Part shown: piece after piece, positions 12,958 through 36,342 of the stretch
How positions within the stretch are numbered: the first letter of the stretch is position 1
Layout: each line of letters begins with the position of its first letter
Source of the DNA: Rhodococcus sp. (in: high G+C Gram-positive bacteria)
Lineage (GTDB): Bacteria > Actinomycetota > Actinomycetes > Mycobacteriales > Mycobacteriaceae
DNA length: 43,319 bases
NCBI GenBank assembly: GCA_004211695.1
Contig: SEEV01000012.1
Coordinates: forward strand, 1 to 43,319
Direction of reading: 5' to 3'
The notes under the pieces: generated by a model
The model's input: the letters and a program-made list of their open reading frames with translations, nothing else
What the model was told of the DNA's origin: nothing
The model's database searches: none
Position numbers and translations under genes: made by a program

Positions 12958-12973
12958 ATTTATTGTGATATTT
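12958..12973 (+). promoter_or_regulatory. Recurrent 16-bp AT-rich palindromic element, copy 1
   Basis: ATTTATTGTGATATTT, 14 of 16 positions matching the window-wide pattern ATTTATTGTGATAAAT. It lies 225 bp upstream of the CMD gene at 13199, in an otherwise GC-rich context. Confidence 0.65.
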
Positions 12974-13118
12974 AACCCGGTATGATGAGTGCGTAGCCAC
13001 CGCCGCGACGCATCATCATGTTCGGTCGTGCCGAGGCAAACGAAATCGCAGGCCCGGCAGAACCACAGTCGAGCGTTGCCGCCGTGGGCTTAGACATCCC
13101 GTTCTAGACAACACCCAA

Positions 13119-13295
13119 GGCGCGCGGGCTAGACGACATCCACCCGGCAGAACACCGGATCGTTCGATAGGTGTTCGCACATCCATCCAGGAGAACCGTT
13201 GACCGACACACCCTCTCTCACAGCAATGAAGTCCGAACTCGGCGAGAACCTCCCGGACTCACACGCCGCATACGAGAGCGTCGACCCAGAACTGT
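13119..13295 (+). repeat. Diverged direct repeat, copy 2
   Basis: Partner of 11689-11864. Here the repeated DNA is the leader and first codons of an intact CMD-family gene, so this is the parental location. Confidence 0.85.
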
Positions 13296-13555
13296 TCGAG
13301 AATTACCTCGCCTGGCGTAGCAGCATCCTGGACACGGGCACCATTCCGCGCGCGCAGAAGCTGTTGATGGTGATTGCGCTGTTGACCGCACAGAAGAGCA
13401 TCCCTGCGCTTAAGGTCTATTCTGCGATCGCTCGCTCGCAGGGGGTCACGGCGCAAGAACTGAAAGAGGCACTTCGAGTCGGCATTCTGTTCTCCGGTGG
13501 CGCCGGGGTCGACGCCGCGTCGAACGTGACCGACCTTCTTCGCGAAGACGACTGA
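13199..13555 (+). CDS. Carboxymuconolactone-decarboxylase-family (AhpD-fold) protein, 118 aa
   Basis: Small all-helical protein of the CMD/AhpD-like fold. The core reads LFENYLAWRSSILDTGTIPR, QKLLMVIALLTAQK, ARSQGVTAQELKEALRVGIL and SGGAGVDAASNVTDLL. There is no cysteine in the whole protein, so it is not a CxxC peroxidatic AhpD. A decarboxylase/lactonase-like or purely structural role is more likely. The start is TTG at 13199 with AGGAG 5 nt upstream. The leader and first 32 codons are duplicated at 11689-11864. A recurrent AT-rich element lies upstream (12958) and a rho-independent terminator follows, so it is a single-gene unit. Confidence 0.85.
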   Translation: MTDTPSLTAMKSELGENLPDSHAAYESVDPELFENYLAWRSSILDTGTIPRAQKLLMVIALLTAQKSIPALKVYSAIARSQGVTAQELKEALRVGILFSGGAGVDAASNVTDLLREDD

Positions 13556-13602
13556 TCTGCCGATCCGGTGGTTGACCCACCGGCCGACCACGCATCTGTG
13601 AC

Positions 13603-13640
13603 CCCGGAGCGCCGCGTAAACCCTGCGGCGCTCCGGGTTT
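13603..13640 (+). terminator. Rho-independent terminator of CMD gene
   Basis: CCCGGAGCGCCGC (13603-13615) pairs exactly with 13625-13637, 9-nt loop, followed by TTT. It sits about 50 nt after the CMD stop codon. Confidence 0.85.
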
Positions 13641-14034
13641 CATGGGCCACTCAGACTCCGCACCAGCGACGCACCCCGTCGCAGCGATGGCCTCGGGAGT
13701 CCGATCACCAGCGACCTCGGGACTATTCCCAGCCTGGGGTGCCGAGCGTCGGCGTCATCTCTGCGCCTACGCGATGCCCGAAACATCTCTTCTAATGAGG
13801 TGTGAGCCCTCGATTGGGACGGGCTGCAGAGGAACTCACCGCTCAGCCCAGCCAATCACTGCGTGTCCGGCGAACGGCTGGCGACCCGGCCCCGGCCCCG
13901 GCCCCGGCCCCGGAAGGAGGTTCGACCTCTTGCGTGCCGCGCAGGTGGCTGGACTTCCGATCAGTTCGTGAACTCGTCCCCTGCTTTCCGCAGCGCCGTC
14001 TAGAGCGTGTCTGCTATTTGCGGACACGGTGATT
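13641..14034. other. Gene-free stretch
   Basis: No supportable gene. It contains the CCCGGC tandem repeat (13885-13913). Its right edge runs into a transposase remnant. Confidence 0.5.
13885..13913. repeat. Tandem hexamer CCCGGC, nearly five copies
   Basis: Four exact copies of CCCGGC plus five bases of a fifth, in tandem. A likely slippage-prone microsatellite without evident function. Confidence 0.85.
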
Positions 14035-14785
14035 AATAACGAACGCCGCGAGGAGTACACCACCGAGGTAAGTGGTGGCGTACTTGTCGCAGCGCGTGGC
14101 GATGCCAGCCATTGCTTGAGACGCCCGAAACCCCGCTCGACGGTGTTGCGTTCGCGGTAACGGTCCTTGTCGAATGCCGGCGGCCGACCTCTGTCCGGCC
14201 CCTTGGCATTACGACATCGGATCTGGTCACTGCGTTCGGGGATGGTGTGCGAGATTCAGCTTTCCCGCAGGTGCTTTCGGGTGCTCGGGTGCGAGTACGC
14301 CTTGTCGGCCAGCAGCCGGAACGCTTCGGTGTCGTGGGCGCGGTGCGCGTCGAGCAGCGGCGCCAGGTGGGGGTTGTCGCCTGCCTGTCCCTGCGAGAGC
14401 GGCAGGGTCAGCGGGCGGCAGAACGTGTCGGTGAGGGCGTGGATCTTGGTGCTCAGCCCGCCGTGGAAGCGGCCGAGTGCGTGGTCGGCGGGTTCGTTGA
14501 TCAGATTCTTGTAATTCGACCGAGCCGCTGTGTGCGCATCGGTCAGGTCGCCGGCCGAATGCTGGTGGGCGCGGACAACGGTCGAATCGATCGACAGCAG
14601 TCGCTCGAGCTGTTCCTGTCGTTCGGTGGCTGCCGCCCGCACGGCGGCGAACATCCGCACGTAGGTGCCGTCGTCCGACCAGCGGCGATGACGCTCCCAG
14701 ATCGACTGCCACGGGCCGAAGTATTCGGGCAGATCGCGCCACGCTGACCCTGTTCGGAACCGCCAGGCGATCCCTTCCAGCGTCA
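14035..14785 (-). pseudogene. IS5-family transposase remnant
   Basis: The minus strand reads LEGIAWRFRTGSAWRDLPEYFGPWQSIWERHRRW, LLSIDSTVVRAHQHSAGD (first catalytic Asp region) and GLSTKIHALTD. After a frameshift come a DRYRERNTVERGF-like segment (second catalytic region) and CDKYATTYLGGVLLAAFVINHRVRK at the end. The order and motifs are those of IS5/IS427-group transposases. The N-terminal ~35 residues are lost where the element meets a dehydrogenase remnant at about 14785. At least two frameshifts are present, near 14256-14230 and in the C-terminal part. Inactive; element ends cannot be placed. Confidence 0.83.
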
Positions 14786-15420: not shown

Positions 15421-16806
15421 TCAGGTCCGCGCTACCGACGCCGACGCGTCCGTGGCCTCCTCGGGGGTCTCGGACGCCGCGTCGTCCTGCGTGTCGAACT
15501 CGTACCTGGTGTTCCGCCAGAGTGCGAATGCCGCTACACCCGCGATGAGCACGATCACTGACGACGTGAGGTACATCGCCCGTGCGGTGACGACCGTCAA
15601 GAGCGCTCCCACCAGCAGCGGCGCGGTGATCGATCCCACGCGACTGAAGCCGCCCATAAGTCCGAGCCCGCGGGCACGAATCTCCGCGGGGTACAGCCGA
15701 GCCGCCGAGGTCATGTATGCGGACATCCCGGCCTGCATGCCCATGCCGAGTAGGACCGCCGAGACGTAGGCGATCGCCCCGGCCATGGTCATCGCGAACG
15801 CGATCTGCGCCACTACCCCGACGACGAGGGCGATCCAACACAGCTTCGTCGGGATCACCCGCAGTGTGAAGATCGCGAAGAGAAGCCCGCCGACGATCGC
15901 GCCGATGCTGATCACCGTCGCCATGAGTGCACCGGTCTCCACATTGTCGGCTGCGGTCGAGATCAGCTGGGGCGTCCAGCTGTTGATGAAGTAGTAGCCG
16001 AGGATGCCACATGTGTATCCACCCCAGATCAGCAGTGAGCGGACGCGGTATCGAGAAGAGAGGACCCCAGCCTTCCCACTGTTCGACGATGAGTGAGCGG
16101 CTTCTGCGCGAGCCGGTTGCGCGGCGGGATCGACGCCGGTCAGTTTCATCCGACGGACGATGGCACTGATTCGATCGGCGCTCGTGTCGGATCGTCGGCC
16201 CGCGAGGTAGACCGGACTCTCCGGCAAGGTCAGCCACACCAGGAGCGTGACGCCCAGACTCACGAGAGCACCGAACCAGAACAGGGCCTGCCACGCTCCG
16301 TCGAAAGCCTTGATAATGACGAGACTCGCCATCCCGCCGAGCAGACTACCGAGCGGAAAGCCCAGCGTGACGAGCGCAACCGCCAGACCGCGACGGTTCT
16401 GCGAGGCATACTCATCGCCGAGGACGTGCGCCAGCGGCAGCATGACCCCGACCGCTACGCCCGTCAGGAGCCGGGTGAACATCATTACCTCGGCATTAGG
16501 GGCCAGAGTCGTGGCTGCCAGGATCACCGCGGCCGCAAACAGGGCGCCGACGACGAGGCGTTTCCGCCCGACTCGATCCGCGTAGGGAGCAATGACTGCG
16601 CTACCCACCGCATACCCGACAAAGCCCAGGCTGATCAACAGACCTTTCTGTTCACCTGAGGCGAAGCCGTCCGGCAGGTGCGGTAATGCATAGGAGACTA
16701 GGAGAAGATCGAGGCCATCGATGGCTCCGCAGAGAATGCATAGGGAGACCGCATACCACCGGAATGGGGTCATTGGTTGCTGACGTATCGCAGTTACGAC
16801 GTCCAT
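15421..16806 (-). CDS. MFS transporter, aromatic-acid:H+ symporter-like, 461 aa
   Basis: About twelve membrane spans. Helix 1 carries CGAIDGLDLLLVSYALP, the conserved acidic motif of the aromatic acid/H+ symporter (PcaK/BenK-like) group. ADRVGRKRLVV follows in loop 2-3, then GVAVGVMLPLAHVLGDEY and LPESPVYLAGR before a hydrophilic central loop of about 60 residues. The second half has a matching pattern (YPAEIRARGLGLMGGFSRVGS). Residues after ~430 are an acidic cytoplasmic tail. Uptake of an organic, probably aromatic or short-chain, acid is likely. It follows the cupin gene by 33 nt and shares its promoter with a recurrent AT-rich element upstream (17505). Confidence 0.92.
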   Translation of the reverse strand: MDVVTAIRQQPMTPFRWYAVSLCILCGAIDGLDLLLVSYALPHLPDGFASGEQKGLLISLGFVGYAVGSAVIAPYADRVGRKRLVVGALFAAAVILAATTLAPNAEVMMFTRLLTGVAVGVMLPLAHVLGDEYASQNRRGLAVALVTLGFPLGSLLGGMASLVIIKAFDGAWQALFWFGALVSLGVTLLVWLTLPESPVYLAGRRSDTSADRISAIVRRMKLTGVDPAAQPARAEAAHSSSNSGKAGVLSSRYRVRSLLIWGGYTCGILGYYFINSWTPQLISTAADNVETGALMATVISIGAIVGGLLFAIFTLRVIPTKLCWIALVVGVVAQIAFAMTMAGAIAYVSAVLLGMGMQAGMSAYMTSAARLYPAEIRARGLGLMGGFSRVGSITAPLLVGALLTVVTARAMYLTSSVIVLIAGVAAFALWRNTRYEFDTQDDAASETPEEATDASASVART

Positions 16807-16839
16807 AGGGATGTTCCGTTCATGTAGAGAGATTCCCGG

Positions 16840-17367
16840 TCATTCGGCCGAGATCATCACCGACTGCAGCGTCACGGTGGTGTCCGTGCGATTGCTCCAC
16901 GCATGCTTGGTGCCGCGTTGGACGAGGGTGTCACCGGCGCGCAGAACCGTCTCCTCGGTCTCCAGGATCGCGACGATCTCACCGGACAAGATCGTGACGA
17001 TGTCTACGGTTTCGGTGACATGGAAACCGGGCACACCCCCGGTCTCGGCGGCGTCGATGGTCCCGGGGAGCTGACCGTTCGCGTCGGAGTAACCCAGCGT
17101 TTGATCCCACTCGGAGTCGGGAGCGAAGGTCACGACACGGAAAACCAAGCCACCCTTGGGCGGTTGCGTGACGACACCGCCCTCAAGCCCGGGCCCGTCT
17201 GTGTACGACGTGGGTACGTTATCGATCCGCCAGATGTCGCACTTAGTGTTCCCGGGTCCGGCGAAGCGATCCGGGGTGTTCTCGTCACTCACGATGCATG
17301 AGTTCCCGTCGGCGTCGATACCGGTCACAACACGCCTGGCCTGTGCCTCGTGATGCTTGAGTGCCAT
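16840..17367 (-). CDS. Cupin-domain protein, 175 aa
   Basis: Single-cupin cytoplasmic protein. The N-terminal part is RRVVTGIDADGNSCIVSDENTP and CDIWRIDNVP. The cupin barrel (~105-170) shows HVTETVDIVTILSGEIVAIL, ETEETVLRAGDTLVQRGTKHAW and SNRTD, giving plausible metal ligands His and Glu in motif 1 and His in motif 2. Proteins of this type occur beside aromatic and lactone catabolic genes; the reaction is unknown. Start 17367 is preferred over 17385 because AAGGA lies 9 nt before it. First gene of a cupin-MFS operon controlled from the region with the element at 17505. A truncated homologue of the N-terminus is at 35167. Confidence 0.9.
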   Translation of the reverse strand: MALKHHEAQARRVVTGIDADGNSCIVSDENTPDRFAGPGNTKCDIWRIDNVPTSYTDGPGLEGGVVTQPPKGGLVFRVVTFAPDSEWDQTLGYSDANGQLPGTIDAAETGGVPGFHVTETVDIVTILSGEIVAILETEETVLRAGDTLVQRGTKHAWSNRTDTTVTLQSVMISAE

Positions 17368-17504
17368 ATGTCCTATTCCTTTCATGCGTCAGCGATCTCA
17401 TGCTGATCGGTCGCGTTCGTGCTCGCTTCCGCAGATCCTCGTCGGACCGTGACTCCGGCGGGCGAAGCCACGCCGGAATGCGAACCCGCCTGCGGGGTGT
17501 GTCT

Positions 17505-17520
17505 AACTATCACAATGAAT
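17505..17520 (-). promoter_or_regulatory. Recurrent 16-bp AT-rich palindromic element, copy 2
   Basis: In the direction of the cupin-MFS operon it reads ATTCATTGTGATAGTT (13 of 16 to ATTTATTGTGATAAAT), about 138 bp upstream of the cupin start. Confidence 0.65.
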
Positions 17521-20100: not shown

Positions 20101-21585
20101 TCATCGCATTACAAATGGGTTAGTAGGAGCCCCGTCATGGGTGGAGATGACGATGCTCTTGGTCTCGAGGTATTCGTTCACGGCGTTGACACCGTTCTCG
20201 CGTCCGAGCCCCGACCGCTTCACACCACCGAAGGGCAGCATGTAGCTGTACGTCCGATAGGTGTTGATCCAGACCGTGCCCACTTCGAGCGCCTTGGACA
20301 GCCGCATAGCGCGCCCGAGGTCCTTGGTCCACACCCCGGCGACGAGGCCGAAATCCACGTCGTTGGCGATCTGCACGGCGTGCTCCTCGTCATCGAACTC
20401 GATGATCGAAAGGATCGGTCCGAAGACCTCCTCCTGGGCGATGCGCATGTCGTTGGTGACGTTGTCGAAGATCGTGGGCTCGACAAACTGGCCACCACCG
20501 GGGCGAATGTCCGCGCCGCTTCGACCACCGAGGACACACCGCGCACCGTCCTGCTTCGCGATGTTGATGTAGTCGAGAACCTTCTGGAACTGGGGCGGAG
20601 TGGCGATCGGACCGACGTGGGTCGCCGGATCCATTGGATCACCGAGCCGCACCGCCTTGGCCAGCTCGACGACCTTCTCGGTGAACTCTTCCCGGATCTC
20701 GCGCTGCACCAACAGGCGCGAACCGGCAGAACACATTTGGCCTGCCGCGCCGAAGATTCCGGTCAGCACACCGGTCGCCGCCAGATCCAGGTTCGCATCG
20801 GCGAACACGATGTTCGGCGACTTGCCACCAAGTTCCAGGGACACGCGCTTGACCGACCTCGCAGCGGTCTCGTAGACCTTGGTTCCGGTCGAGTCAGCGC
20901 CGGTGAAGGTGATCTTCGTGACGTCGGGATGGTCGACCAACGCGGCGCCGACCTCGCCACCGAGGCCGGTGACGACGTTGAAGACCCCGTCGGGGAGGCC
21001 GGCGTCCTGCAACAGTGCGGCGAACTCGAGTGTGCTGGCTGACGCGAACTCCGATGGCTTCACCACTACGGCACAACCGGCCGCTAGCGCTGGAGCACAC
21101 TTGACCGCTGCGAACCACAACGGCGTATTCCACGCGGTGAGGGCGGCCACCACACCGACGGGTTCACGGGTGGTCATCGCGATCGTGTCGGGCTTGCCGA
21201 TCGGGATCGAGGCACCCTCGATCTTGTCGGCCAATCCGGCGAAGTAGTACCAGCATTCCGCGACGGAGGACACCTGACTCTGCACCTCAGCCAACAACTT
21301 GCCAGTGTCACGCACCTCGCTCTCGACGAGCTGAACCGCGTTCTTGGTGACGAGATCACCAATGTTGCGCATGATGGCCCCACGCCGACTGGCTGTCATC
21401 TGCGCCCACGGACCGCGGGTCATGGCGACGCGCGCGGCCTCGACTGCGGCGTCCACGTCGCTTGTGCCTCCGCGTGCGAACTCGGCCCATACCTCGTCGC
21501 GATACGGGTCCCGGGAGTCGATCCATTCGCCGCCGGTCGGATCGACCCATTTGCCGTCGATGAAAAGTTGGTACTTGGTGGTCAT
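20101..21585 (-). CDS. NAD(P)-dependent aldehyde dehydrogenase, 494 aa
   Basis: Complete ALDH-superfamily enzyme oxidising an aldehyde (or semialdehyde) to the acid. Substrate-stabilising N153 lies in TAWNTPLW, the general base E251 in SLELGGKSPNIVF, and the nucleophile C285 in GAAGQMCSAGSRL. The cofactor strand is VVKPSEFAS, and the end PFGGVKRSGLGRENG is typical of the betaine/hydroxymuconic-semialdehyde groups. ATG 21585 has GAGGAAG upstream. It comes 71 nt after the mycofactocin-type SDR, which should supply its aldehyde substrate, and overlaps or abuts the PcaC-like gene. Confidence 0.95.
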   Translation of the reverse strand: MTTKYQLFIDGKWVDPTGGEWIDSRDPYRDEVWAEFARGGTSDVDAAVEAARVAMTRGPWAQMTASRRGAIMRNIGDLVTKNAVQLVESEVRDTGKLLAEVQSQVSSVAECWYYFAGLADKIEGASIPIGKPDTIAMTTREPVGVVAALTAWNTPLWFAAVKCAPALAAGCAVVVKPSEFASASTLEFAALLQDAGLPDGVFNVVTGLGGEVGAALVDHPDVTKITFTGADSTGTKVYETAARSVKRVSLELGGKSPNIVFADANLDLAATGVLTGIFGAAGQMCSAGSRLLVQREIREEFTEKVVELAKAVRLGDPMDPATHVGPIATPPQFQKVLDYINIAKQDGARCVLGGRSGADIRPGGGQFVEPTIFDNVTNDMRIAQEEVFGPILSIIEFDDEEHAVQIANDVDFGLVAGVWTKDLGRAMRLSKALEVGTVWINTYRTYSYMLPFGGVKRSGLGRENGVNAVNEYLETKSIVISTHDGAPTNPFVMR

Positions 21586-21656
21586 GACTTCCTCACCTGG
21601 TGTCAGTCGATGACGTCCGGTCGCCACCGAACGCGCTCTACAGTCGGCCGTGTCGG

Positions 21657-22553
21657 CTATTTCTGTCCGAGTAGATATTCAAGCTCGCCGATACGCGCGC
21701 CCATGTGCGGCGTGATACCGGGCGGTTGGGTCGTCATTCCGGCATCCACCGGCAGGGCGATCCCCGTTATGTACTTCGCCTCGTCGGACGCGAGGAATAG
21801 GACCGAATGCGCGACGTCTTCCGGCTCGATCCACGGGATCGGTTGCAGATTCAGCGACTGGGCCGCGAACTTCATGTCGTCGATGGTCGGATTCGCCTTC
21901 GCCGGCGCGAAACGCTTGAGGTTGTAGTCATTGACGAACAGTTTCGTGTTCACGTTGGTCGGCAGGATTGCATTCACCCGAATCCAATCTTGCGCCAGGT
22001 CCGCGGCAAGGCACTTGACCAGACCGATCAGGCCGTGTTTGGCCGCGGTGTAGGCCGCATTGTTGAAGATCGCCACCAGCGACGCCGCGGAGCCGGTCAC
22101 GATGATCGAACCGCCATCGCCGTGCGCCTTCAGGTGCGGAATAGTCGCAACGACGGTGCGCCAGACCGCGCTCAGGTTGGTGGCGATGACTGTATCCCAG
22201 ATATCCACGGAATCTCGGTCGGTGCCGTGCGGTAGTCCGATGCCGTGATTGATCACGACAGTGTCCAAGCGTCCTAACTCAGCGACCGCCTGGTCGGTGA
22301 CCTCTTGCATCCGCTTCGCGTCTCGGGCGTCGGCTTTGAAACTCAGGCACCGCCGTCCGACCTCTTCAACCAACTTGGTGGTCTCGGCCAGATCCGCGTC
22401 GTCCGCGAGAGGGTAGTGGACACCATCGATCTGTTCGGCAATGTCCGTGATGATGATGTCGGCGCCCTCCTCCGCCAGTCGGATGGCGTGTGCGCGCCCC
22501 TGCCCGCGGGCACCGCCCGTGATGAGGGCGACCTTTCCGTCCATCTTCCCCAT
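21657..22553 (-). CDS. Mycofactocin-coupled SDR-family oxidoreductase, 298 aa
   Basis: SDR with TGGARGQG at residues 12-19, then a family-specific insertion after the second strand (DIAEQIDGVHYPLADDADLAETTKLVEEVGRR, split here over residues 38-68). Next come NHG (102-104), the serine of VTGSAAS, and YTAAK (Y168, K172). The end IPWIEPEDVAHSVLFLASDE and YITGIALPVDAGM matches the mycofactocin-dependent SDR subfamily, whose bound NAD is not exchangeable and is reoxidised through mycofactocin. It likely oxidises an alcohol that the adjacent ALDH carries on to an acid. AGGAG lies 6 nt before ATG 22553. Upstream is a decayed enoyl-CoA hydratase gene. Confidence 0.92.
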   Translation of the reverse strand: MGKMDGKVALITGGARGQGRAHAIRLAEEGADIIITDIAEQIDGVHYPLADDADLAETTKLVEEVGRRCLSFKADARDAKRMQEVTDQAVAELGRLDTVVINHGIGLPHGTDRDSVDIWDTVIATNLSAVWRTVVATIPHLKAHGDGGSIIVTGSAASLVAIFNNAAYTAAKHGLIGLVKCLAADLAQDWIRVNAILPTNVNTKLFVNDYNLKRFAPAKANPTIDDMKFAAQSLNLQPIPWIEPEDVAHSVLFLASDEAKYITGIALPVDAGMTTQPPGITPHMGARIGELEYLLGQK

Positions 22554-25942: not shown

Positions 25943-26082
25943 GTTGAAGTGAACACAGCCACAAGCGCTTACTACGGAAACAGGGCTTCATGGTCCGGGA
26001 ATGAGTCGGCAGCGCATGGGCTTTCGGAATATCCCGCGCGGAGGCGGCGAACACATCACCGGACCGCTCGTCAGAGAGTCTG

Positions 26083-26153: not shown

Positions 26154-26170
26154 GACGCGGATTCCGGCTC

Positions 26171-26395: not shown

Positions 26396-26399
26396 CTAT

Positions 26400-28400
26400 C
26401 TACTCCTGTGAATTGGTGGAAACTGGGCCGTTGCCGTCGGCGGCACGAAGGCCAGCTGTGGCGTCGTGATCGATTTGCAGACCCTCGGGGTCGTTCGCCG
26501 GGTCTCCGATGATGCGGACCCGGTATGTGTTTGCAGCCTCATCGATCGATACGTACCCGTCACGCACGTCACGCCGCACCGCGTCCGGGTCGCGGTGCTC
26601 CGGCCGGCCCCAGCCGCCACCTGCGTTTGTTGTGTACCGCCACGTTGCACCGGCACCGGTGCGCCAGGGGATCTCACTCGCGGGATACGCGGGCAGACCG
26701 GAGGGCGACAAGACCCTCGTTTTCGGGTCGAGCAACCCGGCCACCGGCGTAGACGAGGCATACGCACTCGAGTCGGTGGACACGAAACCGTCTGCCCCTA
26801 CTGGTCTTCCGTCTTGATCGAAGATCCAAACCCCACCCTGAGCACCGTCACGGCCGCCTTCGACGCCGAGACCGGTTGCGTATCGGAACCGCAAGGCGCC
26901 CGTCTGGTGCTCGGCTGGCGCAGTCCACATAATGTCCTTCAAGATCGATGGCCCACCCCTGTGAGTCCCAGCGCCCGAACTGTCGCACGTGTACTCCTTG
27001 CGCATCACCATGACCGGGAATTGAGCTTCGAGACCTTCGGTCGATGGGCTGATGATGTTGATCAGATATGCGCAGATCTGGCCCTCTCCGTCGGCGTTGC
27101 TGTCGGCGCCGATCGGCCCTGTCTCGGCGCCGGCCATCGCGGAGCACGCCCACGGCTCGCCGTCTTCGCTAACCCCGTAAGCGTTGTGACTGGTAGACGA
27201 ACCGCAGTCCCCCGCGATTGTTTTCTCTCCGAGGACATCACCCAGCGCTTCGACAAGCGCGGTCATGATGGCATTCTGCACTTCCCAGAAGTAGAAAATG
27301 GCTCCGTCGGGTGGTAGGGCACTGGCGATCGAACCGGGTGGAAGAACGATGTCCAGTGGACGGTACGAACCCGAGGTGAAGTGTCCTCTGGGGTCCAACA
27401 TCATCTTCAGTCCCACTCCGACGCCGGTCTTGGCATCCAGCGGGCCGGCATTGATCGACGACCGAGCCTGGCGGGAGGATCCGCTGAAGTCGACCTCAAT
27501 CCGATCGGCTCGCTTCCTGAGGTGCAGTACGACTCGATATTCCTCGTCATCGGCGACGGCGTCGGCATCGAGACTCGCCGAGCCGCGATAGTCCCCGTCA
27601 GGAAGTTGGGAGATCGCCAGGTGCATCTTCTCGGCGCTCACATCGCAGCTGTAGTTCAGGGTTCCGAGGTAGGCGTCCACACCGTAACGCTCGACACTCT
27701 CGCGGATGAGTGTCTCGCCGAACCGACAGCAACCATGGATGGTCTTGTAATCGGGGAGCTGGACCTCGCCGAAGCGCGCGTTGTCGAAGATCATGCTGAA
27801 CGTTTCGCGGACTGGTTCTTCAGCGTGGAAGAGCAGGCGCGGACTGATGACCAGCCCGCTCTCGTAGAGATTCTGCTTTGTCGTGCTGAAGCCGCCAGGG
27901 GTCACGCCGCCGACGTCGATCACATGTGCGCGGAGCACCATGAAACTGATGATCCGACCCTCGTGGAAGACCGGGCGGATGAAGCAGACGTCGTTCGCGT
28001 GGTTCCCCATACGCGTCGGGTCGTTGCAGATGAGCAGGTCGCCCGGAACCAAACGCTCGATCCCGTACTCCTCGACCGCGATTCGGACGCCGTCCTGGAT
28101 CGTGCCCAGGAATATCGAGAGACCATTCGTGGCTGTGACCATCCGATAGTTCTGCTCGGGCGGACCACAGATCGCGCAGACGTAGTCCATGGCGAGCGCG
28201 ATGATGGGAGAGAAGGCACGGTACAGCAGCCCGGTGGCGACGTGTTGCGCCGCGAATCGCAGACGATTCGACAACACCGTCGCGGTGAACGGATCCGTTC
28301 CGTATCGCTCTGCGAAGTCGTCGTCGCTCAGGTCCCGCAGGAGCGTGTCGAAGGCGTTGGTCGGGTCTGGCGTCGTAGAAATGTCCAGTGAGGCAGTCAC
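26400..28400 (-). CDS. Hydantoinase B/oxoprolinase-family subunit, 666 aa
   Basis: Carries the HyuB/AcxB-type signature. Near the start are DPFTATVLSNRLRFAAQHVATGL and FSPIIALAMDYVCAI. GDLLICNDPTRMGNHANDVCFIRPVF supplies conserved metal-ligand-like residues, followed by RAHVIDVGGVTPGG and SSTSHNAYG. The end has GLPAYPASEIPWRTGAGATWRY and the glycine-rich tail NAGGGWGRP. The start codon is GTG with AAGGAG 6 nt upstream. It lies 36 nt after the A subunit. The pair performs ATP-dependent ring opening (hydantoins, 5-oxoproline) or, in related forms, ATP-dependent carboxylation of ketones; sequence alone does not decide between these. Confidence 0.93.
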   Translation of the reverse strand: MTASLDISTTPDPTNAFDTLLRDLSDDDFAERYGTDPFTATVLSNRLRFAAQHVATGLLYRAFSPIIALAMDYVCAICGPPEQNYRMVTATNGLSIFLGTIQDGVRIAVEEYGIERLVPGDLLICNDPTRMGNHANDVCFIRPVFHEGRIISFMVLRAHVIDVGGVTPGGFSTTKQNLYESGLVISPRLLFHAEEPVRETFSMIFDNARFGEVQLPDYKTIHGCCRFGETLIRESVERYGVDAYLGTLNYSCDVSAEKMHLAISQLPDGDYRGSASLDADAVADDEEYRVVLHLRKRADRIEVDFSGSSRQARSSINAGPLDAKTGVGVGLKMMLDPRGHFTSGSYRPLDIVLPPGSIASALPPDGAIFYFWEVQNAIMTALVEALGDVLGEKTIAGDCGSSTSHNAYGVSEDGEPWACSAMAGAETGPIGADSNADGEGQICAYLINIISPSTEGLEAQFPVMVMRKEYTCDSSGAGTHRGGPSILKDIMWTAPAEHQTGALRFRYATGLGVEGGRDGAQGGVWIFDQDGRPVGADGFVSTDSSAYASSTPVAGLLDPKTRVLSPSGLPAYPASEIPWRTGAGATWRYTTNAGGGWGRPEHRDPDAVRRDVRDGYVSIDEAANTYRVRIIGDPANDPEGLQIDHDATAGLRAADGNGPVSTNSQE

Positions 28401-28436
28401 TGAGAGCTCCTTCGAAGTGAAATCAGAGAATGGCGG

Positions 28437-30479
28437 CTAGGCGGTGGTGCGGGTAATGACGATTTCGCCGACAGCGCCGATCCTCGCCGACTGTCCTGAT
28501 CCGACAAACGTCGTGGAGAGCGGCTCCCTGATGACTGCGGGTCCGTCGATCACATCGTCCACCAGCAGTTCGGATCGCTCGTACTCCGCAGCGTCGAGGT
28601 CTGTGTCCGCGATGTACCTCAGAGTCGTGGATCGAACCGGAGTGGGGCCGGAACCCGCCGAACGCCGCGCAGGCCTCGGGTAGTCGACCTTGTCCGTCGC
28701 CACCACCGCTTGGAGGCGGAAGGTGACCGTCTGCACGGGCGTTGACGGGAACCGGTTGCCGGATCGCTGCTCGTACGCGTCGTGGAAGTTGGTGATCATC
28801 TGTTCGATCGCGTCAGGAGTGATCTTCCCGGACGGCACGGGTACGAATGGCGTGTCCCATACCTGCCCGACGAGTTGACCGTCGAAGACACGCTTGAACT
28901 CAGCCCGACCGGCGTCCTCACCGAGTGCCTCGCGCATCGAGACCTCCATGCGCGTGTAGATCTGGTCGATCTCGTCTGCGACGTCTGCACTCAGGATGCG
29001 GTAGGCGCTGCGCTTGTCGGCGTGCACCTGGTCTGCACTCACCAGGCCCATCGCCGAGAACAGGCCCGGATAGGGTGGAACGATCACGCTCTTGAGTGGC
29101 ATCTGATCGAGCAGTGCCGGCAACATCATCGGACCAGCGGCCCCGAACGCGACCAGCGAGTAGTCCCTCGGATCGATCCCGTTCTTGACCACGACGTCGG
29201 TGATGCCCTCGGACACATTGTTCAATGCCATCTGGTAGGCGAAGCGCACCCGATCGGGGAAGGTGAATCGCGAGTCGAGTCGTTCGAACGCCGCCCTTGC
29301 GAGGTTTGGGTCCAGCCGTGCGCGCCCGGCGGCGAACCGTTCGCCGTCGAGGATTCCGATCAACAGGAACATGTCGGTGGTCGTGGGCTCGACGCCGCCC
29401 CTCCCGTAGCATGCGGGTCCCGGGTCGGCGCCCGCGCTCTCAGGCCCTACCTGGAGCTCCCCGACTGGAGACACTCGCACGATGCTCCCGCCGCCGGCCC
29501 CCACACTGACGACCTCATTCGACAGAGTGTTGACGACCAGATCGTGCTCCAGTTCGAACGAGGTCTTTACGACTGGTTCATTGTTCGTGACGACGCTGAT
29601 GTCACATGACGTTCCCCCGACGTCGGCGCACAGCAGATTCTCGGAATCGATGGCCCGCCCCAGGTGGGCGCACGCCATGGTACCCGCAGCCGGACCAGAG
29701 AAGAGGACGCGAGACGGCTCCTTCATGGCGACGTCGACTGGTGCCAGAGTCGCAGCGCAATCGGCGAAGTTCAGCTGGCCGCGAAATCCCAACTCGGCGA
29801 GGCCCTTCTGCAGCCGCTCGGTATAGGTCTCGTAGATGATTTTGCACACCGTGTCCACGGTCGTGGTCGATGCGCGTGCGTACTCCAGGGCCAAGGGCGA
29901 GACCTCGCTGGAAATCGAGCAGGGGATGTCACCGAGGATCTCGCGCACCAACTCCCGCAAGCGCTCCTCGTGCGTTCCATCGACGTATGCGTTCAACAGG
30001 CAGATCGCGATACCTTCTACGTTGCACCGCCGCAACACCTCGAGTTCGTTGCGCGCCTGCGCCTCATCCAGCGGCACGACGACATCACCCGATGCTGCCA
30101 AGCGTTCGACGATCCCTCGCCGCAGGTAGCGTGGGACAATGGGTTTGCTGACGTCGCTGAAGCTGCGCCGCCAATGCGGGTCCGTATTCGCCTCCGGCGG
30201 TCGCAGCGCCCTCGCCATGTCGAGCATGTCGCGGTGACCCGCGGTGGTTAGGAATCCAATCTTGGGCAGTTTTCGCGTGATAATCGCGTTGAGCCCGTGG
30301 GTACTGGCATGGTTGAAAACGTCCACCGTGCCCACACCGGCCTCCTCGGCGCCCTGTAAGACGCCTTTGTAGGTCTCGGTAACATTGGTGGCAACCTTGA
30401 TCGTCTCGATCTGTCCGTCACGAACACACACCACGTCCGTGAAGGTGCCGCCCACGTCGACGCCGATCATATTGGCCAT
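28437..30479 (-). CDS. Hydantoinase A/oxoprolinase-family ATP-binding subunit, 680 aa
   Basis: Actin/HSP70-like ATPase fold of the HyuA/AcxA family. The N-terminal phosphate loop is IGVDVGGTFTDVV (residues 5-17), followed by NHASTHGLNAIITRK and GHRDMLDMAR. The second nucleotide motif is LLCADVGGTSCDISVV, with GAGGGSIVRV and GPESAGADPGPACYGRGG after it. FGAAGPMMLPALLDQ and PYPGLFSAMGL complete the family pattern. AGGAG stands about 7 nt before ATG 30479. First gene of the minus-strand unit HyuA-HyuB-zinc ribbon-MFS, with a recurrent AT-rich element 239 bp upstream (30718). Full length for the family. Confidence 0.94.
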   Translation of the reverse strand: MANMIGVDVGGTFTDVVCVRDGQIETIKVATNVTETYKGVLQGAEEAGVGTVDVFNHASTHGLNAIITRKLPKIGFLTTAGHRDMLDMARALRPPEANTDPHWRRSFSDVSKPIVPRYLRRGIVERLAASGDVVVPLDEAQARNELEVLRRCNVEGIAICLLNAYVDGTHEERLRELVREILGDIPCSISSEVSPLALEYARASTTTVDTVCKIIYETYTERLQKGLAELGFRGQLNFADCAATLAPVDVAMKEPSRVLFSGPAAGTMACAHLGRAIDSENLLCADVGGTSCDISVVTNNEPVVKTSFELEHDLVVNTLSNEVVSVGAGGGSIVRVSPVGELQVGPESAGADPGPACYGRGGVEPTTTDMFLLIGILDGERFAAGRARLDPNLARAAFERLDSRFTFPDRVRFAYQMALNNVSEGITDVVVKNGIDPRDYSLVAFGAAGPMMLPALLDQMPLKSVIVPPYPGLFSAMGLVSADQVHADKRSAYRILSADVADEIDQIYTRMEVSMREALGEDAGRAEFKRVFDGQLVGQVWDTPFVPVPSGKITPDAIEQMITNFHDAYEQRSGNRFPSTPVQTVTFRLQAVVATDKVDYPRPARRSAGSGPTPVRSTTLRYIADTDLDAAEYERSELLVDDVIDGPAVIREPLSTTFVGSGQSARIGAVGEIVITRTTA

Positions 30480-30717: not shown

Positions 30718-30733
30718 ATTTATTACAATAGAT
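30718..30733 (-). promoter_or_regulatory. Recurrent 16-bp AT-rich palindromic element, copy 4
   Basis: In the direction of hyuA it reads ATCTATTGTAATAAAT (14 of 16 to the pattern; arms ATCTATT and AATAAAT are nearly symmetric). It lies about 240 bp upstream of the hydantoinase operon. The rest of the 920-bp divergent intergenic region (30480-31401) has no gene. Confidence 0.7.
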
Positions 30734-31230: not shown

Positions 31231-31246
31231 ATTTATTAGGTTAAAT
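31231..31246 (+). promoter_or_regulatory. Recurrent 16-bp AT-rich palindromic element, copy 5
   Basis: ATTTATTAGGTTAAAT (13 of 16), 155 bp upstream of the dehydrogenase at 31402. It is paired with copy 4 across the divergent intergenic region. Confidence 0.62.
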
Positions 31247-31401
31247 ACGGCACCGCGGCGTCCTCATTGCTCGTCCGAGATCGCCGGAACGAATCGATGT
31301 CCTGACGTTGCGAAGCACGATGTGACGAGCACACCGCGGTTTCGACGAGGAGCTCACGGGCTCAGGCGAAGCGTCACATCCCATCAGAGGAGAAGGATTT
31401 G

Positions 31402-32289
31402 ATGAGATCGACTGCGGTAGTGGGACTGGGGGCAATGGGCATGCCGATTGCGCATCGTCTCCTCGACGCCGGCGTTCCGTTGACAGTCCACGACAGCCGC
31501 GCGGAGCCCATGGAAGTCATGAGCGCTGCTGGTGCCACGACGGCCACCCGACTCTCGGACTGTCGCGCAGTTGACGTCGCCCTTATCGTAGTCGCGAATG
31601 CGGACCAGGTGCGCGAGGTGCTATTGGGAGAGCACGGTCTCGCATCCGCCGATATCTCCGCTGGCGACTCGGCTCCGCGCATCGTGGTCGTGATGAGCAC
31701 CATAGGCCGCCAGGCGATCCTGGACGTGCAGCGACAGGTCGAAGCGCGAGGAATCAAGGTCGTCGACGCCCCGATTAGCGGCGGCGCCAGCCATGCGAAC
31801 CGCGGAAGCCTCTCAATTCTCGCAGCAGGTGACTACACCGCCATGGAGTCGGTCCGACCACAATTGGAACTTCTGGGGCATGTCTTTAGCTGCGGCCCGG
31901 TCGGGAATGCGCAGCTGATCAAGGTGGCGAACAACGTAATCGGCAACTTGAGCACCTTGGCGGTCGCCGAAGTCGGGCGGCTACTTCGCGGATATGGGAT
32001 CGATATGGCGGTGGCAAACCAGGTATTCGAAGCAAGCAGCGGACGCAACTGGCTGTCGTCCGACCCCGCGATGGCACAAGAGCAGTATGCAAGATTGAGC
32101 GTGACCCGCGGCGTCTTCGATGCCACCACCGCGATCGTACGGAAAGATGCCCAGCTCGCTCTCGATATCGCCACGGAGTCTGGTGGCGATTACCCACTCA
32201 TCGAGGCTCTCGTGACATTGACACGGGCCGTCGGAGACGAGACATATCAGAACTGGTCCGCCGCTGGCGTCGCCTCACTTCAGCTATAA
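31402..32289 (+). CDS. 3-hydroxyisobutyrate-dehydrogenase-family NAD(P) oxidoreductase, 295 aa
   Basis: Beta-hydroxyacid dehydrogenase fold. The Rossmann glycine loop is GLGAMG (residues 8-13), the substrate-binding DAPISGG is at 122-128, and the catalytic lysine K174 is in QLIKVANNVI. The C-terminal helical domain has the usual RKDAQLALDIA. Members oxidise 3-hydroxyisobutyrate, 2-(hydroxymethyl)glutarate or tartronate semialdehyde-type substrates. ATG 31402 is chosen over TTG 31399 because AAGGA lies 6 nt before it. It is transcribed away from the hydantoinase operon and is followed 341 bp later by an MHS transporter. Confidence 0.92.
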   Translation: MRSTAVVGLGAMGMPIAHRLLDAGVPLTVHDSRAEPMEVMSAAGATTATRLSDCRAVDVALIVVANADQVREVLLGEHGLASADISAGDSAPRIVVVMSTIGRQAILDVQRQVEARGIKVVDAPISGGASHANRGSLSILAAGDYTAMESVRPQLELLGHVFSCGPVGNAQLIKVANNVIGNLSTLAVAEVGRLLRGYGIDMAVANQVFEASSGRNWLSSDPAMAQEQYARLSVTRGVFDATTAIVRKDAQLALDIATESGGDYPLIEALVTLTRAVGDETYQNWSAAGVASLQL

Positions 32290-32453
32290 CACCTTCAGCC
32301 TGGGCCAACATAAGCGTCGCAGCTCCTCCAGGGGTGCGCGACGGCAGGTCACGAGGTCCCCACATAGGTTCAGCCCTCTGCTCAGTTGGGTCGTCTCGGA
32401 AATGAGATCTCTCCCAGACTATTGCAGCAACGGAATGTGCATTCGCGTCGATC

Positions 32454-32474
32454 ACGCCGGACGCAGCATCCGGC
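32454..32474. repeat. 7-bp inverted repeat between dehydrogenase and transporter
   Basis: CGCCGGA and TCCGGCG are exact complements with a 7-nt loop. A weak terminator or operator candidate in an otherwise gene-free 341-bp stretch (32290-32630). Confidence 0.35.
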
Positions 32475-32630
32475 GAACATCAACGCACGTTGAATCTGTC
32501 TCGGTCTTCGTCTCCTTACGCACGACTCTTCTCGATATGGCGAACGTCGCACCGCTGAGTGCAGGGCGGCTGCGGACTAGTACCTCTTCACGATTTCAGC
32601 ATCGCCATACACCTACAGGATTGGAAACTC

Positions 32631-33965
32631 ATGTCTCAGCCATCCGTGCTCAACCCCGAGGGACGACCCCCGGCACCAGCGCACGTCAAATCGAGTGGCA
32701 AGAAGCGGCGTCTCGTGAAGTGGACGAGCGCCATGGGTCAAGTCATCGAGTACTACGACTTCACGATTTACGGATTGGCCGCCGCACTGGTATTCCCACA
32801 CGTCTTCTTCCCCGGTCTCGGCGACTCAGCGGCCCTCGTTGCATCCTTCGCGACCTTCGGCGTCGCCTTCGTCGCCAGGCCTGCCGGCGGGCTCCTCTTC
32901 GGCCACTTCGGAGATAAGTTCGGCCGGAAGACAACACTCATAGTCACCCTGGTCGTTATGGGGATCGCGACCACTGCGATCGGGTTTCTGCCGACCGCCT
33001 CAACCATCGGCGTTGGTGCACCGATCATTCTCGTGGTACTGCGCTTCGTACAGGGACTCACGGCGGGTGGCGAATGGGCAGGTGCGAATCTCTTCGCTGG
33101 TGAACACGCACCTCCGAAACAACGTGGCCGCTGGGCGATGTGGCCTCAGTTGGGATCAGCCGGAGCATTCGTACTCGGCAACGGTACCTTCTTCCTCACC
33201 GGACTAAGTATGAGCGACGAAGTCTTTCTCTCATGGGGTTGGAGGGTGCCCTTCCTGGCGAGCTCGGTACTGCTGATCATCGGCCTCTACGTGCGACTCC
33301 AAACGGATGAGACACCCGTCTTCAAGAAGGCGTTGGAAGACGATGGGGTGCGGCGCATGCCCGTTGTCGCGGCGATCAAGGACCAGCCCCGCGAAATTTT
33401 TCTCGGCTGCGGCGTCGGTATTGCTATGGGAGCCTTCTTCTATTTATCTTCCACTTACCTCGCAGCATTCGCGTCAAACGACCTTGGCCTGAGCCGGAAT
33501 GCTATCTTCTTTGCCCTGACCATCGGAGGCGTCTTTGTGCTCCTCGGATCGCTGACTAGTGGACTGCTCAGCGATAGGTTCCGGCGACGCAAGCTACTCG
33601 TCCAAGCCAACTTCGCCGCACTCGTCTGGTCCCTGGTGTTGTTCCCGATCTTGAGCATCGGAAATCTCGCAGCTTTCGCAACCTGCCTTTCCGTCACTCT
33701 ATTTATCTCAGGCTTCCTCGCGTCCCCATTGGGTGCGTTCCTCCCTGAGCAATTCCAGACGAGTCACCGTTACACTGCGTCGGCCATCACCTACAGCGTG
33801 GGTGCCATGCTGGGCGGCAGTATTCCGCCATTGATCGCCCCTAAGCTGGTGGGCGAGTTCGGTCCTTTCGCGCTCGGCGGGTTCCTCGCGTTCTATTCGC
33901 TGATCGCGCTCCTGTGCGTGCGCGCACTCCGTGACGTGTCGACCGCTTCGCTGACCGAGGTGTAG
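32631..33965 (+). CDS. MFS transporter, metabolite:H+ symporter (MHS) type, 444 aa
   Basis: Strong MHS-family (KgtP/ShiA/ProP-like) features. Helix 1 has SAMGQVIEYYDFTIYGLAAALVFP. FVARPAGGLLFGHFGDKFGRKTTL is the loop 2-3 signature, RFVQGLTAGGEWAGANLFAGEHAP the helix 4-5 motif, and FLSWGWRVPFLAS helix 6. The residue count is normal. ATG 32631 (MSQPS) fits the short polar N-terminus, with AGGA 11 nt upstream. Imports a small carboxylate or similar solute with protons. It probably supplies the enzymes encoded on either side, in a line with the CMD protein downstream. Confidence 0.93.
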   Translation: MSQPSVLNPEGRPPAPAHVKSSGKKRRLVKWTSAMGQVIEYYDFTIYGLAAALVFPHVFFPGLGDSAALVASFATFGVAFVARPAGGLLFGHFGDKFGRKTTLIVTLVVMGIATTAIGFLPTASTIGVGAPIILVVLRFVQGLTAGGEWAGANLFAGEHAPPKQRGRWAMWPQLGSAGAFVLGNGTFFLTGLSMSDEVFLSWGWRVPFLASSVLLIIGLYVRLQTDETPVFKKALEDDGVRRMPVVAAIKDQPREIFLGCGVGIAMGAFFYLSSTYLAAFASNDLGLSRNAIFFALTIGGVFVLLGSLTSGLLSDRFRRRKLLVQANFAALVWSLVLFPILSIGNLAAFATCLSVTLFISGFLASPLGAFLPEQFQTSHRYTASAITYSVGAMLGGSIPPLIAPKLVGEFGPFALGGFLAFYSLIALLCVRALRDVSTASLTEV

Positions 33966-34128
33966 TGGCGCGTGCAGAGTGACGTGCGAACATGCCGAAG
34001 ATACGGCCGGACCCGGCTGCGGGGGTGTCACCGAGTACATGATCGTTCAGGGTCCCGGCGAACCTAGGGCTCTTCACCTGGAACAGGCCGTGCGTCACTC
34101 GCCACCGTCGATGTGATCCTCAAAATGG

Positions 34129-34560
34129 ATGGAACCAGTGGGTGAAATAACAAGAAGTGCGCCCACCGATGCCCGTGACACGGTGGGCGATCTCGCTCCG
34201 GACTTCGCGAAGATGACGGACGAACTCCTATACGGCGCGATATGGAATGACACGAATCTTTCACTGCGTGATCGGTCTTTGATTACGGTCGCTTCCCTGA
34301 TGTCGCTTTATCGCCTGGAACAAATCGACTCACACCTGAGCCGGGCTCTTAGCAACGGCGTGACGAAAGAGGAACTTGTCGCTGCGATCCACCACCTCGC
34401 ATTTTACGCGGGGTGGCCCGCCGCTTTCACCACGATGACTCATCTGAGGACGTTATTAGGCGATTACGAGAGACACCAGTCTCGCGCCACTGGAAGGACT
34501 GTCGACTCCAACATCACCGTCAGGCAGCATGGGGACACGGTCCACGCCGACTCCGTCTAA
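34129..34560 (+). CDS. Carboxymuconolactone-decarboxylase-family protein, 143 aa
   Basis: Helical CMD fold: YGAIWNDTNLSLRDRSLITVASLMSL, then EQIDSHLSRALSNGVTKEELVAAIHHLAFYAGWPAAFTTM. This is the YurZ-like branch of the CMD family, without any cysteine. The last ~35 residues extend past the usual end and are polar. The ribosome site is poor and an ATG also occurs at 34125 in another frame, so the exact start is uncertain. Third CMD-type protein in the window. It lies 163 bp after the MHS transporter. Stretch 34561-35038 after it shows no gene. Confidence 0.85.
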   Translation: MEPVGEITRSAPTDARDTVGDLAPDFAKMTDELLYGAIWNDTNLSLRDRSLITVASLMSLYRLEQIDSHLSRALSNGVTKEELVAAIHHLAFYAGWPAAFTTMTHLRTLLGDYERHQSRATGRTVDSNITVRQHGDTVHADSV

Positions 34561-35038
34561 CTCGAACGCAACGAACTCGAAGGCACTCGGACGGGTACAA
34601 GTCGCATTGTGCGGCACTGTCCGTCCCGTCCGGCAAACGAGTGGGGCTCGCCCTATGGCCGCATGCCAACTCCTCGACCGGTGCCGGCAGCCTATCGCGG
34701 AGCAAAGCTCTCGCGCCCCGTCCACAAGCGCGTTCCCGCCCTGATCGGGCTTCACCGAGAGCATGTCGAACACAATAGGTCGGGGATCACCTTCCCCGGC
34801 CGGTGCCCGTCTTTTACGTGCGGATCGTGTTGGTCACCGACGCGCTTATGGCCGCGGGCCGCCTTGCGAGGCGAAGCTGAGCTGAACATTTCGACGAGAT
34901 GCCCAGCCAGGTTCTGGGGTCATCGTGCCGGAGATCGCGTCATTCGGCTGGCGCGGAGCGTTTTGTTGCCCTGAACCGACTGATCGGTTGCGGGGAGGCA
35001 TGGAGTCGTCACGCCTACTGCATATCAGGAGCGCGCGC
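34561..35038. other. Gene-free stretch before copy 6 of the AT-rich element
   Basis: Frames here lack motifs and ribosome sites. Only the promoter-proximal AT-rich element at its right edge stands out. Confidence 0.4.
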
Positions 35039-35054
35039 ATTTATTATGATAGTT
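35039..35054 (+). promoter_or_regulatory. Recurrent 16-bp AT-rich palindromic element, copy 6
   Basis: ATTTATTATGATAGTT (13 of 16), 112 bp upstream of the truncated cupin/SDR pair. Confidence 0.63.
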
Positions 35055-35166
35055 ACGGTAGTATAGTTCGCGGTCGCTCACACCCGATCCTCCAGCGTGC
35101 AACTGATCGGATTGCAGTGGAGAGTTGAGTAAGTAGTGTGCGCGATCACATAGAGGAGGGCCGTCA

Positions 35167-35367
35167 ATGTCAGGGCAGTCGAATGGTCGCCATCGGCGCG
35201 TAGTGACCGGCGTCGACGAGACAGATCAGTCGATGCTTGTCAGCGACGGCGTACCGCCGCTGCGAGCTCACAGACCGACCGGTCTGGAAATTACGGAAGT
35301 GTGGCGAACGAACGAGGCCACGCATCCGCGACGTGCAACGACGGGCATCCTCGGAGGAGACTACTGA
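35167..35367 (+). CDS. Truncated cupin-protein N-terminus, 66 aa, coupled to SDR gene
   Basis: The reading frame has a good ribosome site (GGAGGG, 7 nt) and starts MSGQSNGRHRRVVTGVDETDQ, then MLVSDGVPP and TEVWRTNEA. It aligns with the first ~55 residues of the cupin protein at 16840-17367 (shared RRVVTG-D and the VSD strand) but stops before the cupin barrel. Its TGA overlaps the SDR start codon (TGATG), so it can drive translation of the SDR. Either a degenerated cupin gene kept as a leader peptide, or a genuine short protein. No metal site remains. Confidence 0.65.
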   Translation: MSGQSNGRHRRVVTGVDETDQSMLVSDGVPPLRAHRPTGLEITEVWRTNEATHPRRATTGILGGDY

Positions 35368-36167
35368 TGGAAAAGCAACGCTACGTCGTAACAGGTGCAG
35401 CAAGCGGCATCGGCCGTTCGGTTGCGGAGCTGGCTGCCGCCGAAGGAGCAGCGCTCGTTCTCGTCGACATCTCGGCCGACGCACTGGATGAGGTCGCAAA
35501 GGGGCTGCGTAGAAGCGGGACACGAGTGGCGACAGTCGTCGCCGACCTCACCTCGGCGGAAGAGGCAAAACGAGTCGTCAAGGAGTCGGCTGATTTCCTC
35601 GGCGGGATTGATGTCCTAGTGAGCAACGCGGGTGCGCCGGAGCTTTACTTCCTGAAAGACCTGCCGGTTGAGGCGTTCGACCGTGCTGTCGCGCTCAATG
35701 TCCGAGCGACGTGGGCCCTGGGCCAGGCCGCTCACCCCTATTTGGCCGAGTCTCGCGGCAACATTGTGGCCACGGGATCGGTGTGCGGACACCATCCAGC
35801 ACCGCCACAGGGGGCGTATTCGGTCGCGAAGGCGGGCCTTCTGATGCTCGTGCGTCAGATGTCGCTGGAGTGGGGCCCGGACGGCATTCGCTGCAACAGC
35901 GTGTCACCGGGCCCAACGACGACTGGGCTTACCGAGGGTGTCTTTAACGACCTTTCGGATCCCAAACAGCGTGCGGTGCGGGAGATGCGAGAGTCGCGAC
36001 TGCCGTTGCGGAAGCTCGGCGCGCCCATTGAGGTCGCGGAGGCGATCATGTTCCTCGCGAGTCCTCGAGCCTCCCAGATCACGGGCGTTGACATCGTGGT
36101 GGATGGAGGCATGTCGACCGCGCTCATGCCGTCGGTCGGAGTGTCCTCGGGTCAACCCGCACAGTAA
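35367..36167 (+). CDS. Short-chain dehydrogenase/reductase, 266 aa
   Basis: Classical SDR with TGAASGIG at residues 9-16, SNAG at 86-89, catalytic S138 in ATGSVCG, and YSVAK giving Y151 and K155. The tail ITGVDIVVDGGMST is typical. Aspartate at the end of strand 2 (LVDIS) favours NAD over NADP. GGAGGA lies about 9 nt before the ATG, and the start codon overlaps the stop of the truncated cupin frame. It oxidises an unknown alcohol in the same regulon as the hydrolase downstream. Confidence 0.93.
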   Translation: MEKQRYVVTGAASGIGRSVAELAAAEGAALVLVDISADALDEVAKGLRRSGTRVATVVADLTSAEEAKRVVKESADFLGGIDVLVSNAGAPELYFLKDLPVEAFDRAVALNVRATWALGQAAHPYLAESRGNIVATGSVCGHHPAPPQGAYSVAKAGLLMLVRQMSLEWGPDGIRCNSVSPGPTTTGLTEGVFNDLSDPKQRAVREMRESRLPLRKLGAPIEVAEAIMFLASPRASQITGVDIVVDGGMSTALMPSVGVSSGQPAQ

Positions 36168-36326
36168 TAGTGACACCGTTGCACCCTGGCTGATCAGACG
36201 CAGGAATCGGAAGTGTGCGTCGACCAAAGCCCATCGCCAGGTCCCTACCGTTAGACAGCGGCCGAACGCCACTATCTACGTGTTTTGTTGCGGCTATCGA
36301 AGGGTCTTGACGGGATCAATCTGTCT

Positions 36327-36342
36327 ATCTATTGTGATAAAT
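36327..36342 (+). promoter_or_regulatory. Recurrent 16-bp AT-rich palindromic element, copy 7
   Basis: ATCTATTGTGATAAAT (15 of 16, the best copy), 182 bp upstream of the hydrolase start. Confidence 0.72.

Follow-up and report, generated by a model that had tools for sequence, protein, structure and literature searches.

A 16-bp near-palindrome at catabolic promoters of a Rhodococcus sp. and its probable GntR/FCD repressors

Results

The DNA analysed was the whole of contig SEEV01000012.1 (43,319 nucleotides; C47, here called the window) of Rhodococcus sp. assembly GCA_004211695.1, a genome of 8.47 Mb in 1043 contigs that is 74% complete. The window carries seven copies of a 16-bp AT-rich near-palindrome, each ahead of a catabolic or transport unit, which are treated here as predicted operators (Table 1). 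A preliminary description, made from the sequence letters, had placed seven such sites between 12958 and 36342. All were present, with one to three mismatches each to ATTTATTGTGATAAAT (13 to 15 of 16 positions matching). Its judgement that chance was a very unlikely origin agreed with 100 dinucleotide-preserving shuffles, which gave 0.01 sites on average and at most 1. Scanned with a weight matrix, the seven sites scored 24.0 to 29.2 bits and the best unrelated place in the window 11.0 bits. The matrix was built from ten sites, these seven and three on a second contig, C63, which makes high scores of the seven a matter of construction; the information lies in the gap to the next place.

All seven sites lay outside Pfam-supported genes and outside the GC-rich block at 1949-11002, as had been claimed. 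Six are close to the consensus in gene orientation; the reversed one is 23271-23286, which is consensus-like on the plus strand with its unit on the minus strand. The ATG of the decayed hydratase follows site 23271 by 89 nt and the other candidate starts, taken from the starts of open reading frames (ORFs), lie about 120 to 250 nt from their sites; the earlier estimate was 90 to 240 bp.

Table 1. Predicted operators and the units associated with them. Positions refer to the window unless preceded by C63; mismatches are those to ATTTATTGTGATAAAT.
Feature	Position	Strand	Mismatches	Associated unit or site	Promoter elements and remarks
Operator 1 (predicted)	12958..12973	+	2	ahead of CMD gene	TTGACG 12919-12924, TAGCCT 12942-12947 just upstream
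Operator 2 (predicted)	17505..17520	-	3	ahead of cupin and MFS genes	TTGACC 17555-17560, TACGCT 17532-17537, - strand
Operator 3 (predicted)	23271..23286	-	3	decayed hydratase-SDR-ALDH	in promoter spacer; TTGACT 23292-23297, weak -10 GATACT 23268-23273
Operator 4 (predicted)	30718..30733	-	2	ahead of HyuA-HyuB-MFS	TTGACA 30769-30774, TAGCAT 30745-30750, - strand
Operator 5 (predicted)	31231..31246	+	3	ahead of beta-hydroxyacid dehydrogenase	TTGACG 31190-31195, TACGCT 31214-31219
Operator 6 (predicted)	35039..35054	+	3	ahead of candidate truncated cupin (label of the preliminary description) and SDR	no TTGAC box within 45 nt upstream
Operator 7 (predicted)	36327..36342	+	1	alpha/beta hydrolase	covers -10 TATTGT 36330-36335; TTGACG 36307-36312
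Site	C63:5890			GntR gene 5018-5767 behind site
Site	C63:6633			NDMA-dependent alcohol dehydrogenase and ALDH behind site
Site	C63:21368			beta-hydroxyacid dehydrogenase behind site	within longest ORF but ahead of in-frame ATG
Site	C63:30071			ECH, CoA transferase, ECH, ALDH and GntR gene behind site
Site	C63:30363			AtuA and acyl-CoA dehydrogenase behind site
Site	C63:38892			MFS behind site
CMD-family protein	13199..13555	+		target of operator 1	Pfam CMD
Cupin 16840-17385, MFS transporter 15421-16806	15421..17385	-		targets of operator 2	Pfam
Decayed enoyl-CoA hydratase (ATG 23182), mycofactocin-coupled type SDR 21657-22553, ALDH 20101-21627	20101..23182	-		targets of operator 3
HyuA 28437-30479, HyuB 26400-28400, MFS 24549-26054	24549..30479	-		targets of operator 4	Pfam
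Beta-hydroxyacid dehydrogenase 31399-32289, MFS 32559-33965, CMD 34129-34560	31399..34560	+		likely unit behind operator 5	Pfam; presumed single unit
SDR	35301..36167	+		target of operator 6	Pfam
Alpha/beta hydrolase	36525..37619	+		target of operator 7	Pfam

The check suggested in the preliminary description, a genome-wide scan, was carried out on about 8.4 Mb with the 16-mer at up to three mismatches. Seven matches fell on the window contig, three on C63 and three elsewhere; the reversed-pattern control gave two. With the weight matrix, six further sites were found on C63 (23.3 to 29.3 bits), together with a weak one at C63:25338 (15.4 bits); the best unrelated place on this contig scored 10.6 bits. 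The site at C63:38892 is a full palindrome, ATTTATC-GT-GATAAAT. C63 was the sole contig besides that of the window with several sites. The pattern AWYYATYRYRATRRWT at up to one mismatch matched 23 places in the genome, namely 12 of the 13 sites (31231 was missed), C63:21898 and ten places on other contigs, compared with two for the reversed control.

For the analysis of promoters, gene orientation was assigned from ORFs and transcription starts were inferred. A TTGAC box lay within 45 nt upstream of 10 of the 13 sites (background 3.1%; opposite strand 1 of 13; mean 1.36 and maximum 6 in dinucleotide shuffles). Eight of the 13 had a full TTGACN-N16-19-TANNNT promoter, with a background of 56/24430 windows (0.23%). 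The -35 hexamer starts 39, 40, 41 and 41 nt before sites 12958, 17505, 30718 and 31231, which lie just past the -10, and 32 nt before C63:30363. It starts 20, 20 and 22 nt before 36327, C63:6633 and C63:38892, which cover the -10, and 11 nt before 23271 and C63:30071, which lie in the spacer of promoters with a weak -10. The earlier suggestion that the right half of the site resembles a -10 box stood only in part: a -10 (TATTGT or TATCGT) is contained in three of the 13 sites, within the left half and centre, while the site follows the -10 at five, lies between -35 and weak -10 at two and has no TTGAC box at three. A repressor operator is placed around the core promoter in just this variable way. 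When the operator offsets were examined for helical phasing, R was 0.76 at 10.5 bp, which gave 0.002 if the ten offsets are taken as independent and 0.046 on four classes; this was not relied on.

The position of the 16-mer on or near promoters, and over the -10 in three of 13 cases, would also be expected of a promoter or initial-transcript element, such as a sigma-factor motif or a structure in the 5' mRNA. This is very unlikely, as the offset from the -35 varies (11, 20-22, 32 and 39-41 nt), some units have the 16-mer before the start and others after it, TTGACN/TANNNT boxes of the ordinary kind being present, and an Rfam scan of the window gave 0 matches.

A second dyad accompanied some of the sites. 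CRP-like TGTGA-N6-TCACA dyads occurred within 45 nt upstream of five of the 13 sites at up to two mismatches (shuffles mean 0.31, maximum 2), and the number was still five at up to three mismatches, against 1.7 in shuffles. The count is partly tied to the promoter, because the TTGAC box is itself part of two of the five, those ahead of C63:6633 and C63:38892. The only one-mismatch dyads in 86 kb, at 17528 and 31208, lie over -10 hexamers, and those at 17528-17543, 30741-30756 and 31208-31223 (one to two mismatches) overlie the -10 hexamers of three window promoters. These dyads may be CRP or GlxR sites.

The statement that no adjacent gene encodes the regulator proved incomplete. Only one regulator was recognised in the window, a Ser/Thr kinase-AAA-TPR-LuxR (GerE) protein of 1087 amino acids at 39365-42628 (+), which we take to be PknK/AcoK-like. 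The best candidates are on C63, which encodes three GntR/FCD paralogues at 5018-5767, 10395-11144 and 24541-25290. Two of them show 61 and 67% identity to the one counted as the first; of the 26 homologues that the genome contains, those ranking next by score had 33-34% identity. Pfam GntR (N-terminal winged helix) and FCD (C-terminal) were above cut-off for C63:24541-25290 and C63:10395-11144, and C63:5018-5767 was assigned to GntR/FCD by its 61-67% identity to these Pfam-matched paralogues and not by the Pfam scan. The latter gene carries a site itself (5890, about 120 nt before its start), which the preliminary description had named as one mark of support. His157, His202 and His224 (numbering of the first sequence) were invariant in 23 of 23 homologues and may be the metal ligands of the FCD pocket. 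The trio of paralogues is probably the regulator that the preliminary description lacked.

The close clade of these proteins is rare. At E 1e-52 neither 27 congeners nor the 395 other genomes of a phylum sample contained a match. When 397 genomes of the order were sampled, 24 passed E 1e-45 in addition to the genome studied; G105 reached 467 bits and the next 224, and G105 is the only other close-clade genome of that sample. Its GntR gene (C6:373333-374079) is flanked on one side by a hydratase-CoA transferase pair and on the other by a divergent AtuA gene. The single perfect palindrome in its 9.6 Mb (five places at up to one mismatch), at C6:373262, lies between the GntR gene and the hydratase, 55 bp from the 3' end of the former. 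The congeners G083, G096 and G113 had no perfect match and 1, 1 and 6 places with one mismatch.

Motif and GntR proteins also co-occur in some remoter lineages, with GntR identities of 38-40%; many other remoter homologues have no site close by. G386, whose GntR protein is 39% identical, had a single perfect match within its 6.4 Mb, roughly 1 kb away from the GntR gene, and its congener G453 a match at this same position, 17 bp ahead of an amidohydrolase ORF. In L108, a Solirubrobacterales metagenome-assembled genome (GntR 40% identical), there are three site-like places of 13-16 bits, none perfect to the degenerate pattern: one directly precedes the likely GntR start, another directly precedes an ECH-CoA transferase pair, and the third is near an acyl-CoA dehydrogenase. 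Among 121 genomes including that studied, ATYTATTGTRATARAT at up to one mismatch gave, outside the latter, single matches in G063 and G064 only; these were taken as chance, and G064 is without a close GntR protein.

The hydratase promoters of C63, the window and G105 have in common the TTGAC box and the operator at the same 11-nt offset, with 9 of 16 operator columns identical, in a stretch that is otherwise poorly conserved. The intact hydratases of C63 and G105 are 69% identical. The decayed hydratase of the window (22600-23182, -) resembles that of C63 at its start and has the same promoter-operator layout, and the upstream regions of 17505 and 31231 are alike, so the similarity of the sites might be ascribed to recent duplication of promoter pieces rather than to selection for binding. 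This is very unlikely: the flanks of the sites otherwise differ, blastn of the window contig against C63 gave seven matches of which none is at a site, and TTGAC and the operator columns are retained at a fixed offset amid poorly conserved sequence in all three promoters.

Another regulator encoded on the same two contigs might instead be the owner of the operators: a MarR (C63:34878-35390), an SbtR-like TetR (C63:12597-13238) or an MmyB-like protein (C63:3943-4839), or the kinase-AAA-TPR-LuxR protein of the window. None of these four genes has a site close upstream, and sites on and past the -10 are ill-suited to an activator such as a LuxR-type protein. The regulator common to the site-bearing neighbourhoods of G105, L108 and G453 is GntR, in loci that were found via GntR and without an exhaustive search for other regulators there. 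On balance an owner other than the GntR/FCD proteins is unlikely.

An association of the motif with AtuA as such was considered and rejected. The best scores in the AtuA neighbourhoods of G025, G024 and a Pseudonocardia plasmid were 10.4, 15.2 and 10.2 bits, well below the real sites. For HyuA homologues, a site was present in none of nine loci (L162-L170, with 1.5-kb flanks; best 16.0).

Discussion

The C63 proteins share with the FadR subfamily (LldR, PdhR, NanR, HypR) the GntR winged helix and the FCD domain, and their nearest solved relatives by sequence are 6az6, the LldR-type 2di3, PdhR 9jpj and NanR 6on4. The NCBIfam models of named members were below cut-off for them, the best being NanR with 83.9 vs 260 bits. 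The operator differs. Its form is AWYYAT-N4-ATRRWT, with TTAT-N4-ATAA-like half-sites and no GT/AC core, whereas the subfamily consensus is given as a TKGT/ACMA palindrome with GT and AC 2-3 nt apart (PMC4494728). The operator does not fit that palindrome; some operators that depart from it are known. According to the same source, Arg at helix-turn-helix (HTH) position 28 prefers a G/C pair (PMC4494728). In the alignment, the Arg of LldR and NanR coincides with V of the query, 6az6 having Tyr and 8pqm Gln at this place; it is V or A in the four close-clade proteins, A or S in the remoter homologues of the order and in L108, and Arg in two 32%-identical FCD proteins of the same genome (C975). 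If the aligned place is HTH position 28, as the sequences suggest, V or A instead of Arg fits TTAT instead of TKGT and the lack of the core G. This suggests a GntR/FCD clade whose operator lacks the GT/AC core of the subfamily and whose proteins show a corresponding substitution of the G-reading Arg.

A non-canonical operator made of TTAT/ATAA half-sites is also that of BioR, the alphaproteobacterial biotin repressor, given as TTATMKATAA (PMC4494728). The comparison is one of operators and not of proteins. The half-sites of BioR are 2 bp apart vs 4 bp here, and its operator as quoted is thus not the present one; it controls biotin genes, whereas catabolic or transport genes lie behind the sites described here. 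HypR sites are reported to occur at diverse positions around transcription starts and to repress (PMC6608401), a combination of varied placement and repression that is proposed for the present operators as well.

The preliminary description read the sites as operators of a dimeric repressor with a shared regulon, and this remains the best-supported reading; most likely they form a real regulon and are operators of an uncharacterised GntR/FCD clade. More specifically, with a probability of roughly three in four, the 16-mers are operators of GntR/FCD (FadR-subfamily) repressors encoded by the three C63 paralogues, which would control the catabolic units. From the above we infer binding, repression, an inducer and an action of the C63 proteins on the window contig. 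A GntR/FCD dimer would occupy the core promoter, either in the spacer from -35 to -10, across the -10 or directly past it, and thereby block units for alcohol and aldehyde oxidation, CoA transfer, hydratases, HyuAB and MFS uptake. Repression would be lifted when an acid or acyl-CoA of the pathway binds to the FCD domain.

Several results weigh against this assignment. The two contigs come from a fragmented assembly and may lie on separate replicons. In the weight-matrix scan of C63, the gene at 10395-11144 had no nearby site; that at 24541-25290, which comes after the operon headed by site 30071, has only one weak site, 25338, some 50 nt ahead of its start. No TTGAC box was found within 45 nt upstream of 35039, C63:5890 and C63:21368. 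A perfect match to the degenerate palindrome at C321:6661 of the same genome (L156:6661) lies beside a gene that is TetR-like by eye. The congeners G001 (L159:5277) and G025 (L160:5202), which are without the GntR clade, have one perfect palindrome each, with the same neighbours; this is perhaps the site of another regulator. G328 has a GntR protein of 43% identity, yet no palindrome match in its genome. Of 47 remoter FCD homologues (24-44% identity), the upstream shuffle fraction was at most 0.02 in 11 and higher in the other 36; the 11/47 are suggestive only, because the shuffles were mononucleotide and several homologues, which are not independent, are near-identical. Two of these 11 belong to the eight f16 homologues (42-44% identity). 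Finally, Arg occupies the key place in two of the four aligned solved relatives and Tyr or Gln in the others.

The kind of system is familiar and the operator is unusual; motif and regulators appear uncharacterised. The claim that the motif is undescribed held for the literature searched, which comprised papers under open licences and contained none recognisably on this motif or this GntR/FCD clade. An orphan motif thus gains a likely regulator, and the duplicated repressors, which may share one operator, make a compact example. In addition, uncharacterised enzymes (AtuA, HyuAB, CMD, mycofactocin-type) are joined in one regulon, which aids the search for the substrate. The window SDR scored above the cut-off of the mycofactocin-coupled SDRs, and the alcohol dehydrogenase of C63 above that of the NDMA-dependent ones, so that oxidation of an alcohol to an acid and CoA-linked breakdown is a fair guess at the pathway. 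A wider proposal is tentative and rather doubtful in its entirety: a catabolic island, rare and probably acquired by horizontal transfer, whose three duplicated GntR/FCD repressors each sense another intermediate of the pathway and share a non-canonical operator at no fewer than 13 promoters, so that derepression would integrate several signals and a CRP/GlxR-like site over the -10 might add catabolite control at some of them.

Other features of the window

Plasmid records matching window positions 12500-37400 numbered 39, of which 26 were from Rhodococcus; the best rows cover 3-4% of the query, and none of the 39 covers 80% of it. Positions 13999-14798, about 800 bp, share 90-91% identity with many plasmids of Rhodococcus, and none of the rows listed has a feature annotated beneath the match. 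A region encoding an IS256/Mutator-family transposase at 17826-18877 is about 89% identical to Rhodococcus plasmids.

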